From Plantactinospora endophytica (GTDB lineage: Bacteria; Actinomycetota; Actinomycetes; Mycobacteriales; Micromonosporaceae), in assembly GCF_016862915.1 (NCBI RefSeq), contig NZ_BONW01000025.1:62001-126000 (forward strand): a DNA stretch of 64,000 nucleotides, read 5' to 3'. A program made the translations under genes and the position numbers. The notes beneath the pieces are model-generated. The model was not told the DNA's origin and searched no databases. It saw only the letters and a list, made by a program, of their open reading frames with translations. This document shows positions 1 through 3,915 of the stretch, piece by piece; position 1 is the first letter of the stretch; every line of letters begins with the position of its first letter.

Positions 1-663
1 GCTCCCCCAGCCGCCCAGCTTGTACGGCAGGTAGATGATCGCCACCAGGATCACGATGTAGATCAGTGTGTCCTTGACGAACGCGATAAGCGCGGGTGCC
101 CGCAGCCCGGACTGGTAGGTGTACGCGGCCAGGATGGCGAAGGCGATGATGATCGGCAGGTGCCGGGCGATGGTGCTCTCCCCGGTGACCCCCATCGTCT
201 TGAGTACCGCCTCGATGCCGACGAGTTGGAGCGCGATGTAGGGCATCGTGGCGACGATCCCGGTGATCGCGATGATCAGCGCCAGGGTCGGCGAGTCGAA
301 CCGCTTCCGGACGAAGTCGGCCGGGGTGACGAAGCCGTGCCGGTGCGACACCGACCAGAGCCGGACCAGCACCAGGAAGACCAACGGATAGATGATGATC
401 GTGTACGGCACGGCGAAGAACCCGGCCGCGCCGGCCCCGAACAGCAGCGCAGGTACGGCCACGAAGGTGTACGCGGTGTAGAGGTCGCCGCCGACCAGGA
501 ACCAGGTGATCCAGCCGCCGAAGCTCCGCCCGCCGAGGCCCCACTCGTCGAGGTGGTTGATGTCCTTCGGTGCCCGCCACCGGGCCGCGATGAAGCCCAT
601 CGCGCTGACCAGCAGAAACAGCACCGTGAAGATGATGATCTCAGTGAGATGGTCCTGCCACAC
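1..663 (-). CDS. Sodium:solute symporter (SSS family), 3'-truncated by window edge
   Basis: Integral membrane transporter that probably couples Na+ to uptake of a monocarboxylate or similar small solute. The 221 visible codons are the N-terminal part. They contain several long hydrophobic segments, a cytoplasmic stretch with a conserved WGLGGRSFG-type motif near residue 30 (typical of SSS proteins) and a KRFDSPTLAL-like loop. I start it at GTG 663, six bases after the DUF3311 stop and just behind a G-rich Shine-Dalgarno stretch. The pairing of a roughly 80-residue DUF3311 protein with an SSS permease is a common actinobacterial two-gene operon (family knowledge). The gene runs off the left edge, so the substrate-defining half is unseen. 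Family confident, substrate unknown. Confidence 0.88.
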   Translation of the reverse strand, partial: MWQDHLTEIIIFTVLFLLVSAMGFIAARWRAPKDINHLDEWGLGGRSFGGWITWFLVGGDLYTAYTFVAVPALLFGAGAAGFFAVPYTIIIYPLVFLVLVRLWSVSHRHGFVTPADFVRKRFDSPTLALIIAITGIVATMPYIALQLVGIEAVLKTMGVTGESTIARHLPIIIAFAILAAYTYQSGLRAPALIAFVKDTLIYIVILVAIIYLPYKLGGWGS

Positions 664-669
664 CGCCGG

Positions 670-918
670 TCACCCCCGCTTCTTCGTCATCTGGTACACC
701 ACGGTGGTGGTGCCGACCCCGAGCAGGATGAAGGCCAGTTGGAGCCAGTAGAAGACCGGGAAGCCGAACAGCCGGGGCGAGTCGGTGTTGAACAGCGGCG
801 TGATCAACGGCACCACGATCGGCAGGAAGAGCAGCCAGTTCCACGGGCTGTGGTCCTTGGCCCGCGATCTCGACACCACCTCGGCTGCCGGCGTTGCCGG
901 CGTCTCGGAGTCGCTCAT
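670..918 (-). CDS. DUF3311 small membrane protein
   Basis: An 82-residue protein with a polar N-terminus of about 25 residues followed by two hydrophobic segments (roughly residues 27-42 and 55-75) and a KKRG tail. This length and topology are those of DUF3311, small proteins encoded immediately upstream of SSS symporters and presumed to help their assembly or stability. It starts at ATG 918 and ends six bases before the symporter GTG, so the two are surely co-translated. Its start codon overlaps the stop of an upstream 27-codon mini-ORF (ATGA) belonging to a tandem repeat, which is unusual. The function itself has not been established for the family, as far as I know. Confidence 0.85.
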   Translation of the reverse strand: MSDSETPATPAAEVVSRSRAKDHSPWNWLLFLPIVVPLITPLFNTDSPRLFGFPVFYWLQLAFILLGVGTTTVVYQMTKKRG

Positions 919-1076
919 GCCGGCACCCCGCTTCGCTCCGTACCGTCCTGAGACTCGTCGGCGCCGAGTTCGATGATTCGCTCGCTGCGTTCACTCATGC
1001 CGGCACTCCGCTTCGCTCCGTACGTCCTGAGACTCGTCGGCGCCGAGTTCGATGATTCGCTCGCTGCGCTCGCTCA
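914..1076 (-). repeat. Tandem ~80-bp direct repeat, two copies plus start of a third
   Basis: Units begin at 914, 994 and 1073 on the plus strand (periods 80 and 79). The first two are identical except for a few substitutions and one base missing at the GTACCG/GTACG position; the third is cut short after about 15 bases. Read on the minus strand, each full unit carries a GGAG- or GGGG-type ribosome binding site, an ATG and codons for MSERSERIIELGADESQD. It therefore duplicates a translation initiation region rather than random intergenic DNA. Similar SERSER-encoding sequence near gene starts is, from memory, frequent in Micromonosporaceae. Confidence 0.9.
915..998 (-). CDS. Repeat-encoded mini-ORF, 27 aa, coupled to DUF3311
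   Basis: Starts at ATG 998 behind GGAG with 7-8 nt spacing, encodes MSERSERIIELGADESQD followed by GTERSGVPA, and stops with TGA overlapping the ATG of DUF3311. It is too short to judge by composition. The ribosome binding site, the ATGA overlap and the near-identical second copy upstream suggest that it is translated and couples ribosomes into the DUF3311-symporter operon. A stable product is doubtful. Confidence 0.4.
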   Translation of the reverse strand: MSERSERIIELGADESQDGTERSGVPA

Positions 1077-1077
1077 T
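991..1077 (-). CDS. Repeat-encoded mini-ORF, 28 aa, upstream copy
   Basis: Starts at ATG 1077 behind a good GAGGAG site and encodes MSERSERIIELGADESQD followed by VRSEAECRHE. It stops eight bases into the next copy of the mini-ORF. The single-base deletion relative to the downstream copy shifts the tail into another frame, so the two peptides share 18 N-terminal residues and then diverge. Probably a duplicated leader rather than a functional protein. Confidence 0.35.
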   Translation of the reverse strand: MSERSERIIELGADESQDVRSEAECRHE

Positions 1078-1343
1078 GCCGTCTCCTCGCTGCGCTCGGC
1101 CCGGTGACCCACCTGCTCGCGTCCGGCCGTCGTTGACCTACACGTGCCGCCGGACGTTAGGGCAGAGTGACAGCGGTCACGTCGACGAAAAGGGACTGGT
1201 GCGCCCAACGGCGACCACCGTGCGCCGAATGGTGATCAACAGACCAAATAAGGTCACACTAAACGGTCTTATCAGGCTAAAAAATACATCGAAGTACGAC
1301 GATTGCTCTTGATCCGTGCCCGGCCGGTTGCCATGCTGGCCGG
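1078..1343. other. Intergenic region, divergent promoters
   Basis: Separates the leftward symporter operon from the rightward hydrolase. Positions 1210-1310 are strikingly AT-rich for this genome (for example around CTAAAAAATACATC at 1278-1291) and are the likely site of one or both promoters. No convincing gene or RNA is seen here. Confidence 0.4.
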
Positions 1344-2231
1344 GTGCCGCGATTCCCTTCGTACGACAGCACCGAACTCGCGTACCACGTCCTCGGATCC
1401 GGGCCGCCGTTGGTCTGTCTGCCCGGCGGGCCGGCCCGGGCAGCCAGCTATCTCGGCGACCTCGGCGGGCTGAGTCGGGAACGGACACTGCTCAAGCTCG
1501 ACCACCGGGGCAGCGGCGAGTCGGCGACCCCGGAGGATCAGGCGAGCTACCGGTGCGAACGCCTGGTCGACGACGTGGAGGCGTTCCGGGTCCACCTCGG
1601 ACTGGACCGGATGGACCTGCTCGCCCACTCGGCCGGCGGCAACCTCGCGGAACTCTACGCGGCCCGGTACCCGCACCGGCTGTCCCGACTCGTACTCGTC
1701 ACCCCCGGCCTGCGCGCGGTCGGCGTACAGACGGCCGGCTTCGCCGAGGCGATCGCCGCCCGCTCCACCGAGTGGTGGTATCCGGAGGCGAAGGCGGCGA
1801 TGGACGCCTGGCAGGAGGCGGCGAGCCGGGGCGCCGGACCGGACGAGGTGAACCCACTGCGAGTCGGCGCCGCGCCGTTCGCGTACGGCCGGTGGGACGA
1901 GCGGGCCCGGCTGCACGCCGAGGCCGACCAGTGGGAACGGCCGGAGACGGCGTCCGCCGGGTTCTACGACGGGTTCGCCCCGGACACCTCGGCGGTCCGC
2001 GCCGCCCTGGCCGGACTCGACGCCCCGGTGCTGGTACTGGCCGGCGGCCTCGACCCGGCACCGACCCCGCAGGCGGCCCGGGCGCTCGCCGCACTCTTCC
2101 GCAACGCCGAGACCGTGGTGCAGGACGGTGCCAGCCACTTCCCCTGGCTCGACGACCCGGCCCGGTTCGTCAAGACGGTGCTCACCTTCCTCGGCGAGGA
2201 GCCGGCGACCCACGGCAACGCCCCACACTGA
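1344..2231 (+). CDS. Alpha/beta hydrolase (proline iminopeptidase-like)
   Basis: A 295-residue cytosolic hydrolase of the alpha/beta fold. The oxyanion region GSGPPLVCLPGGP lies at residues 17-29, a DHRGSGES strand at about 54-61 and the nucleophile elbow AHSAGGN at about 94-100. An acidic residue follows in the LAGGLDPAP region near 232-240, and the probable catalytic His is in DGASHFPW near 261-268. The layout is that of proline iminopeptidases and related esterases; the true substrate cannot be read from sequence. The GTG start gives the family's usual length. There is little ribosome binding site before it, so it could be a leaderless transcript from the AT-rich stretch just upstream. Confidence 0.85.
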   Translation: MPRFPSYDSTELAYHVLGSGPPLVCLPGGPARAASYLGDLGGLSRERTLLKLDHRGSGESATPEDQASYRCERLVDDVEAFRVHLGLDRMDLLAHSAGGNLAELYAARYPHRLSRLVLVTPGLRAVGVQTAGFAEAIAARSTEWWYPEAKAAMDAWQEAASRGAGPDEVNPLRVGAAPFAYGRWDERARLHAEADQWERPETASAGFYDGFAPDTSAVRAALAGLDAPVLVLAGGLDPAPTPQAARALAALFRNAETVVQDGASHFPWLDDPARFVKTVLTFLGEEPATHGNAPH

Positions 2232-2407
2232 CCCGACCACACCGAACGGTCTGGTCTGCGCCGCCAGTTCCACCGTCGGAAACGTCGGAGCCTGCTCCGG
2301 CGAGCCGGGGTCGCGTCGGTGTTTCCCACCCTTCGAGCGGTGCCGACCTCCCGTCGGTCTGTCGAATCTTCCTGCCCCTGGACCGCGCACCGGCTCGGCC
2401 GGTCACG

Positions 2408-2433
2408 CAACCTTTTCGGACCCTCGATTCGTA
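2408..2433 (+). promoter_or_regulatory. Candidate ECF-type promoter of the sigma factor gene
   Basis: CAACC at 2408-2412, a 17-base spacer, then CGTA at 2430-2433, placed 38 bp before the sigma factor ATG. An AAC/CGT pair with this spacing is the usual shape of ECF sigma promoters, and autoregulation is common for such genes. Seen only as a short match, so tentative. Confidence 0.3.
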
Positions 2434-2470
2434 CGCCTGAGGTGACGTCCAAGGTAAAAGGGGTTGGTTG

Positions 2471-3022
2471 ATGCCGGAGCCGGAGAGTTTTGATGACTTC
2501 GTCCGAGCCTGCTCTCATCGGCTGTACCGGGTCGGGTGCCTGCTCACCGGGGGGAACCGGGCGCAGGCGGAGGACCTGGTCGCCGAGGCGCTTGCTCGGG
2601 TCTACCTGGCCTGGCCTCGGGTGCGGTCCGGAGACGCGTTCGGTTACGCCCGACGCACCATCGTGAATCTGCACACCGACTGGTGGCGTGGGCTGCGGCA
2701 CCGCCGTGAAGTGCTCACCGACGAGATGCCGGACGTTCCCGGCGGTACGGACCAGGGTGGCCAGGTCGTACGGCGGGACAGCGTCGTCCGCTCGCTTCGC
2801 CGACTCACCCGACGCGAGCGGGCCGTGGTGGTCCTGCGTTACTTCCTCGACCTGACCGAGCAGGACACCGCAGCCGAGTTGGGCGTCTCGCTCGGAACGG
2901 TGAAGAGCACGAACGCCCGCGCCCTGGCGAAGCTCCGGGTGTCTCCAGACCTCGTCGAGCCGGTGAGGTCCACCGACCCACCGATCCGAACGGTTGTCCC
3001 AACACAACCCCGGGAGTCCTGA
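2471..3022 (+). CDS. ECF RNA polymerase sigma factor, SigE family
   Basis: Directs RNA polymerase to a small stress or signal regulon. It has about 183 residues with sigma-70 region 2 at roughly residues 5-75 (FVRACSHRLYRVGCLL ... AWPRVRSGDAFGYARRTIVN) and region 4 at about 105-160 (LRRLTRRERAVVVLRYFLDLTEQD then a GVSLGTVKS helix-turn-helix). ATG 2471 is preferred over the TTG one codon earlier because an AAAAGGGG site sits 7 bases before it. The stop overlaps the next gene's ATG (TGATG), so the two form a translationally coupled pair, which suggests that the neighbour is the regulator of this sigma factor. The length fits the actinobacterial SigE family. Target genes are unknown apart from possible autoregulation. 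Confidence 0.9.
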   Translation: MPEPESFDDFVRACSHRLYRVGCLLTGGNRAQAEDLVAEALARVYLAWPRVRSGDAFGYARRTIVNLHTDWWRGLRHRREVLTDEMPDVPGGTDQGGQVVRRDSVVRSLRRLTRRERAVVVLRYFLDLTEQDTAAELGVSLGTVKSTNARALAKLRVSPDLVEPVRSTDPPIRTVVPTQPRES

Positions 3023-3915
3023 TGAAAGACATCGATGACCTGCGTCATGCTCTCGAAGCCGAGACTGCGAACCTGACAGTCGACATCCCGGTCGGACGTA
3101 TCCGTCGCCGAGCCCGCGGCGTGCGGTTTCGGCAGGGGGCAACGCTGGCTGCGGCGGCTGCCGTCGTCGCGGCGGTGGGAGTCGTACCCGTCGTCATGAC
3201 GGTGGGCGGTTCGAGCCCCGCGTCCGATGCCGTCGGACAGGTCTCCGGGGCGTCACCATGCCCGACTCTGTCCTCCGACAATCCGGGGGGCGAACTACAG
3301 ACGCTCGGCCCGCTGGTCGAGACGGGTGCCACCCTCGACGCGCCGAACCTCGACGCGCGGTACGACGTACTGATCGGCCTGGTCGGTACCCGTGATCAGC
3401 CCGGCTTCGTCGTCGCGTTCCGGGACCGGCACACCCGCGTGGTCCAGGTCTGGGACAACCACGGGCTCGGACGTGATTCCAGCGGGGACTTCGCGGGAAA
3501 GCGAGCCGGGGAGCCGGCGCACCAGTTCTTCAGCGCTCAACTCGCTCTCGGGCCGGACAGGGTGCTCGACGTCGGGTTGTACAGCAGGGCGGCGCACCGG
3601 ATCACCGTCTCGTCCGAAGGCCACCCGACGGACGCCGAAAGCACCCGGAACACCGCCACCGGGTGGACGTTCTTCTGGGTCCAGCGTTCGGCCCGGCCGC
3701 TGCCCCCGGACCGCTTCACGTCCCCGGGGGATTACCAGGGACCCGAGAAGGTGACGGTCGCCGCCTACGACGCCGCCGGCCGGCCACAGCACACCGACTC
3801 GGGCGGTCCACACGTCGGCGGCGGTGTGCAGAACCCGAGGGACGGTTCGCCGTCCGCGCAGGTGACGCCCTCTCCAACCGCACCGGCCTGCCCGACCGGG
3901 GTGGTCCCGAGCTAG
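3022..3915 (+). CDS. Single-pass membrane protein coupled to ECF sigma factor (putative anti-sigma)
   Basis: A 297-residue protein with a short cytoplasmic N-terminus (DIDDLRHALEAETANLTVDI, a pattern seen at the start of many proteins paired with SigE-type sigma factors), an arginine-rich RIRRRARGVRF stretch and one transmembrane segment at about residues 36-60. A long extracytoplasmic region of about 230 residues follows, rich in Pro, Gly and Asp with two cysteines. No zinc-binding anti-sigma HxxxCxxC motif is visible, so anti-sigma activity is inferred only from its overlap with the sigma gene and its topology. The outer part may sense a signal or simply be a secreted domain. Downstream to 4105 is non-coding. 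Confidence 0.75.
   Translation: MKDIDDLRHALEAETANLTVDIPVGRIRRRARGVRFRQGATLAAAAAVVAAVGVVPVVMTVGGSSPASDAVGQVSGASPCPTLSSDNPGGELQTLGPLVETGATLDAPNLDARYDVLIGLVGTRDQPGFVVAFRDRHTRVVQVWDNHGLGRDSSGDFAGKRAGEPAHQFFSAQLALGPDRVLDVGLYSRAAHRITVSSEGHPTDAESTRNTATGWTFFWVQRSARPLPPDRFTSPGDYQGPEKVTVAAYDAAGRPQHTDSGGPHVGGGVQNPRDGSPSAQVTPSPTAPACPTGVVPS

Follow-up and report, generated by a model that had tools for sequence, protein, structure and literature searches.

Tuberculosis strain typing is underpinned by MIRUs, the mycobacterial interspersed repetitive units reportedly described by Supply et al. in 1997, and to our knowledge their movement and their effect on host genes have stayed unresolved since that year. 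IS200/IS605 elements are single-stranded elements whose guides base-pair with the target, with REP/RAYT as non-autonomous derivatives. One review describes MIRUs as apparently mobile, inserting at start codons with an ORF coupled at −4 nt spacing, an arrangement that probably serves to limit the effect on the gene (PMC12548453). A statement in a second paper confines the senX3-regX3 MIRUs to M. leprae and the M. tuberculosis complex (PMC4213456), and a third counts 41 MIRU sites in M. tuberculosis H37Rv and connects the length of the repeat with expression of fpg1 (PMC2734929). The tandem repeats studied here, from a 64,000-nt stretch of Plantactinospora endophytica DNA (the window), are copies of a short, apparently mobile cassette present in many actinobacteria.

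Two cassette units of 79 and 80 bp lie in tandem on the minus strand at window positions 919–1077, with a 3′ half-unit upstream. Unit 2 (80 nt, 919–998) is intact, and its mini-ORF (915–998, encoding MSERSERIIELGADESQDGTERSGVPA) ends in a TGA overlapping the ATG of the host gene, which encodes an 82-aa DUF3311 protein (670–918, minus strand; start ATGAGCGAC; Pfam PF11755, E 9.4e-11). A gene of the sodium:solute symporter family, assigned from its ORF translation and Pfam, follows on the same strand (1–663) and runs off the window. Unit 1 (79 nt, 999–1077) is degenerate, with a 1-nt deletion relative to unit 2, and its mini-ORF (991–1077, MSERSERIIELGADESQDVRSEAECRHE) stops 8 nt beyond the next ATG. 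The half-unit (1074–1112, minus strand) holds a possible 12-aa GTG mini-ORF, VGHRAERSEETA, whose TGA overlaps the unit 1 ATG. TRF reported a repeat at 914–1097 with period 79, 2.3 copies and a score of 312, and a repeat search aligned a 75-nt copy at 91% identity within the locus. The initial annotation had described two ~80-bp tandem units with mini-ORFs before DUF3311, the downstream one joined to the gene by an ATGA overlap and the upstream one running eight bases past the next ATG. This description was confirmed in both junctions and in its two units, but the array amounts to 2.3 copies, the half-unit having been missed together with the degeneracy of unit 1, the covarying start-codon hairpin and the parallel with MIRUs.

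The 3′ hairpin of unit 2, which includes the DUF3311 ATGAG start (914–952, minus strand), has a predicted energy of −15.3 kcal/mol as RNA (z −3.27), and the corresponding remnant in unit 1 (994–1031, minus strand) is no more stable than its shuffles (z 0.01). Unit 2 retains hairpin and overlap, whereas unit 1 has lost both through the 1-nt deletion and is a decaying copy. The 3′ core GAGCGNAGCG lies on the minus strand at 929–938 in unit 2, where core search and hairpin alignment identify it as the hairpin cap, and at 1009–1018 in unit 1, where it was found by core search. The bare core occurs five times in the window against 2.27 expected, a weak excess that 6 of 100 shuffles reach. Beyond the repeats, on the plus strand (1344–2231 and 2468–3915), a divergent alpha/beta hydrolase gene was recognised by Pfam, followed farther on by a sigma-factor-like ORF and then another ORF, both read from translations only.

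A search with the repeat region found matches at 21 places of its 9.68-Mb source genome, one of them the region itself. A 20-nt start pattern allowing up to two mismatches found 20 genome places, both window sites included, against none for the reversed control, so the window repeats are not a product of chance; this genome-wide search, which the initial annotation had proposed, places the cassette elsewhere in the genome as well, contrary to the refuting outcome named there of no further copies. A family model using sequence only and built from 16 units of this genome gave 24 matches there at E ≤ 1e-4, 16 of them the training units, and 9, 9, 16, 19, 40 and 49 matches in six congeners. Several of the 49 matches in one congener (G058) belong to a 77-nt subtype in which the peptide ends with DERSEETA or a similar sequence (e.g. 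L251, L282, L285, L287 and L292), which suggests subtype turnover between species. At E ≤ 0.01, matches were present in 110 of 150 genomes of the same family and 33 of 44 genera, own genome counted. Across the class, at least 26 of 394 genomes had matches at E ≤ 1e-4, a lower bound because only 11 candidates were scored per genome. A pattern scan of named genomes returned at least 119 stretches, whose 5′ conservation results from their selection, since the fetching pattern fixes the 5′ end; among the 80 matches listed were Micromonospora, Plantactinospora, Catellatospora, Phytohabitans, Microbispora, Nocardia, Nocardioides, Streptomyces and Kitasatospora. For the terms used, we found no description of units like these in the open literature searched.

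To define the unit, nhmmer was run on 294 sequences, giving 284 hits, of which 207 were distinct; 22 were dropped as having no assigned start or end, leaving 185 units. A typical unit begins with ATGAG and encodes a mini-ORF of about 27 aa whose final TGA overlaps the start that follows. The commonest sizes are 80 nt (116 units), 77 nt (33) and 71 nt (13). The 4-nt overlap between mini-ORF stop and next start, scored by seeking the next start within 8 nt of its expected place with the stop position unused, is preserved in 174 of the 185 units, with lengths of 68–86 nt that are all 2 mod 3, and is broken in 11, window unit 1 among them.

Eighteen units lead into another unit, and of the remaining 167 all but 12 lie directly before an ORF of at least 60 aa (155/167), which bears out the earlier proposal of a repetitive initiation cassette. 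Among units with at least 600 nt of downstream sequence, 138 of 161 precede an ORF of at least 150 codons, compared with 742 of 3649 control xTGAG sites. In 109 of 162 cases the first unit begins at the stop codon that closes an ORF of at least 100 codons lying upstream, against 36% for control TGA triplets. The fifth base of the host gene is G in 139 of 153 cases versus 70 of 159 ordinary coupled ATGA starts, an excess that may come partly from the model, which includes that G. Ten downstream proteins in the own genome were assigned from a reading of their Pfam matches: nuoI- and nuoG-type subunits, qcrA (Rieske), ilvN, a Pup-ligase/dop type, ribBA, two response regulators and two SDR enzymes. 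Separately, an 81-nt unit before ribBA (L012:1498–1583, minus strand) has no in-frame stop and may give RibBA a 27-residue N-terminal extension (MSERGERISQLSADESHDGPERSGAAG).

Comparison of orthologous starts revealed clean insertions of about 80 bp precisely at start codons. At ilvN the own genome (G000) reads AGTGCAG/ATGAGCAAGCGTAGC...GCCGGC/ATGAGCAAGCACACG, with slashes at the boundaries, and G113 is also occupied; in the congeners G032, G078, G058 and G092 the gene starts in the same way and the insert is absent. At qcrA the own genome reads GGGAAGTC/ATGAGCGAG...ATCGGC/ATGAGCACTCG, and in nine other genomes inspected the gene start stands directly there. The argG start is occupied in G078 and G113 and empty in G032, G104, G058, G068, G010 and G020; the empty start of G032 is ATGAGCGAGCG, resembling the unit's own start, and the other five are ATGAC. 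No argG match was found in G000 or G092. The two argG units are mutual nearest neighbours (4 differences; the next at 8 or 9) and group on the local tree (0.906), so they may stem from one insertion. These pairs of occupied and empty starts support the suggestion in the initial annotation that the cassette spreads. Target-site duplication beyond ATGA(GC) was rejected: at positions 5–13, matches between unit and gene were not significantly more frequent than in shuffles (n = 153; lowest P 0.07, for position 7), and a 10-nt identity at ilvN in G000 is absent in G113, whose ilvN unit begins ATGAGCGAGC.

Inspection by eye of 30 ilvN loci found this cassette in L075 alone. Upstream of ilvN, L091 and L094 (genus g4) carry two different mini-ORF cassettes of other kinds, tandem MNECTERSEGHEGMTRKVQS and MSARFPGTVRWHGPTERSETVA, each ending in a stop, and L170 (Nocardioides) and L178 (Microbispora) carry MSERSER units of other subtypes. 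The ilvN start thus seems to have been hit repeatedly by cassettes across several genera.

The DUF3311 start itself differs between species. The own genome has two units, G032 and G078 have one unit and a half-unit each, and G058 has one unit of another subtype. The tandem expansion postulated earlier is seen here as a difference between species: two units here against one in G032 and G078. Both window units have a G (CTCGGC) not present in those of G032 and G078, and this shared base indicates that the second copy arose by local duplication.

Folding single units predicted a 39-nt hairpin, CTCATG-N-CGGCAC-GGA-GC-GNA-GC-GGA-GTGCCG-N-CATGAG, formed by the 3′ half of the unit and the next start, with ATGAG hidden in it. 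An earlier view that the units lack structure, suggested by a weak consensus and by a fold of a 206-nt region of the window (less stable than its shuffles, z +1.61), was overturned by these single-unit hairpins. Covariation was assessed on 70 of 114 distinct 80-nt units, namely the 76 best-scoring minus 6 tandem or near-duplicate ones; the 38 lower-scoring units were also left out. In this set 95.4% of cells were paired, and 37 cells carried double changes against 6.2 ± 2.1 after shuffling, a number reached in 0 of 500 shuffles. The double changes fell at 7 of the 14 pairs (a count reached by 1 of 500 shuffles, with 2–5 in slid controls), and one position showed five pair types. Over all 114 units, 82.1% of cells were paired (72.7% shuffled), with 105 double-change cells against 35.7 shuffled (largest 54). 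The 44 lowest-ranked units gave 61.5% (51.8% shuffled) and 57 double-change cells against 32.5 (largest 48), and several of them have, by eye, other stem letters, such as CTCATGCGCG/CGCGCATGAG. Support for the hairpin holds across the 114 units but is weaker than in the 70. A covarying hairpin over the next start codon is new here.

Masking of the start is predicted for most size classes. The downstream ATGAG had an unpaired probability of 0.164, compared with 0.572 when only the middle was shuffled (n = 73), and five other size classes with at least three units gave 0.27–0.49 against 0.57–0.75. A lone 86-nt unit agrees with masking, and a lone 83-nt unit goes against it (0.59 vs. 0.50). CTCA stands at its expected place in 81 of 116 80-nt units and in 11 of 33, 2 of 6, 4 of 13 and 0 of 4 units of the shorter classes. 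For a second candidate, a left-end TGAGC/GCTCA hairpin, pairing was high (94.6%), but covariation was no greater than in shuffled sequences. G-U cells outnumbered A-C cells by 34 to 9 in the 70 units and by 89 to 39 in all 114, as a folded sense strand would give, although a sense strand folding as single-stranded DNA would be biased in the same way; counted by pairs, the excess is slight (8 vs. 6).

Taken together, we think it likely that the unit is a start-codon cassette on which a ribosome translating the mini-ORF unfolds the hairpin and then reinitiates at the host start. As a mobile element the unit would be small, non-autonomous and MIRU-like, with an ATGA(G) start codon as its insertion site. 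The host's original ribosome site would then drive the ~27-aa mini-ORF of the element, whose stop overlaps the displaced host start (ATGA), so that ribosomes could terminate there and restart on the host gene, and the host protein would be unchanged after insertion. Folding of the element's 3′ half with the host start would hide ATGAG from free ribosomes, and opening of the hairpin by the mini-ORF ribosome would relay host translation through the mini-ORF. The host gene is thus probably still translated, by relay. In the window, such an element would have inserted before DUF3311 and duplicated in tandem in its own lineage, and unit 1 would have decayed since. A special Shine-Dalgarno strength at the 3′ end of the unit was also considered and is barely supported, the energy of −7.39 being a slight advantage over −6.97 for shuffled sequences.

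A possible though less likely explanation is that these are neutral repeats, inserted widely and surviving where they do no harm, at a start codon with the 4-nt overlap restored, and that the hairpin is a leftover of DNA transposition with no role in translation. Such repeats would fit both the lack of clear selection on the peptide and the persistence of the GCGNAGC core in another reading frame in one subtype. They would also fit the extraordinary stability in DNA that PMC4686876 attributes to GNA-loop hairpins containing two or more G-C pairs, GCGAAGC being an example. Random insertion, however, should often hit intergenic sites away from starts, yet the units precede long ORFs far more often than the 20% of controls. 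The G-U excess also argues for a folded sense strand, within the limit given above for single-stranded DNA.

A more far-reaching proposal, which we regard as doubtful, joins both roles of the hairpin. The cassettes would form a pan-actinobacterial mobile class that seeks start codons, moves as single-stranded DNA and includes MIRUs as a derived branch. GCGNAGC (GNA-loop) mini-hairpins would mark both ends, and CTCAT/GCTCA would pair with the ATGAG target as IS200/IS605 guides do. The same hairpin would act as an RNA-level lock coupling host translation to the mini-ORF, and this double use would account for the tolerance of core operons towards the element.

It is very unlikely that the mini-ORFs serve to make a conserved peptide with a function (MSERSERI...ERSGVPA). 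The overlap, and hence frame length, is preserved as a peptide gene would require, and in codons 2–8 the third positions are the more variable (entropy 0.46 vs. 0.24 and 0.24). This excess comes largely from one CGN site (1.9 bits), however, and the entropies over the whole unit (0.52/0.60/0.63 for the three codon positions) and over codons 9–18, where the second position is most variable, give no clear sign of selection on the peptide. We therefore infer translation of the mini-ORF from the conservation of the overlap. In the 174 overlap-bearing units, the 3′ core GCGNAGC, where single, occupies frame 2 in 110 units, frame 0 in 23 (19 of them, by eye, of the AKR subtype) and frame 1 in one; 6 units have several cores and 34 have none. 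Most units translate the core as ERS and that subtype translates it as AKR, with its nucleotides unchanged; conservation thus appears stronger at the nucleotide than at the peptide level. Presence of the cassette also varies among congeners, and the peptide itself is probably without function.

A regulatory leader, that is, a ligand- or stress-responsive uORF or attenuator for specific genes, could account for covarying structure over a start codon, but we give it little credence: the host genes are functionally unrelated, occupancy differs among congeners, and Rfam gave no match at gathering level in window 1–3000, only two far sub-threshold ones (1228–1351 and 2141–2195). A mere doubling of the DUF3311 start in tandem within this strain, with no mobile element involved, would explain the G shared by the two window units, but it is refuted as a full explanation and has a negligible chance of being right, given that the unit also stands before unrelated genes throughout this genome and its congeners, and that it is missing from orthologous starts.

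Insertions of the start-codon cassette account for the MSERSER... mini-ORFs and for some N-terminal extensions, such as the possible one of RibBA. With a similar high-copy class in soil actinobacteria, natural pairs of occupied and empty starts, and a hairpin complement that matches the target, mobility and coupling become testable in laboratory strains.

The cassette resembles MIRUs, as far as passages of the sources describe them, in being a dispersed and tandem repeat of 40–100 bp (units of 68–88 bp, over many loci) inserted at start codons in the same direction as the gene, with an internal ORF at a −4 overlap with it (174 of 185 units). A MIRU core query was run on 148 genomes of one genus of the same order and found the core in 74, against one hit in all for the reversed control. 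PPE proteins are mycobacterial, and since six of the MIRU-core genomes have 6–119 PPE matches, the genus is probably Mycobacterium. Within 20 loci of this PPE-rich genus, a DTGA overlap was present in 17 of 28 MIRU-core units, and the core GAGCGNAGCGA is common to these units and the cassette. In the loci read (L295–L314), tandem arrays reach 6 units (L302), and the MIRU-like core extends more widely than the senX3-regX3 passage suggests. MIRU-core arrays repeat at about 53 bp, whereas the cassette is mostly 80 bp. Stable hairpins were unsupported in five of six MIRU-core units folded (z above −1.4; the sixth −3.0), whereas the cassette hairpin covaries and includes the start codon. A profile of the 28 MIRU-core units found no significant match to cassette units (best E 0.21), and we therefore claim that the cassette works in a similar way and has one core in common with MIRUs, without counting it as one of them.

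As in IS200/IS605 elements, the cassette may carry hairpins near its ends, of which the right one covaries, together with an internal CTCAT complementary to the ATGAG target; no duplication beyond ATGA(GC) is evident. Translational coupling and bicistronic designs, as a passage of PMC12548453 presents them, use a short ORF to deliver ribosomes to an overlapping start, as here; the cassette differs in that its short ORF rides on a dispersed repeat.
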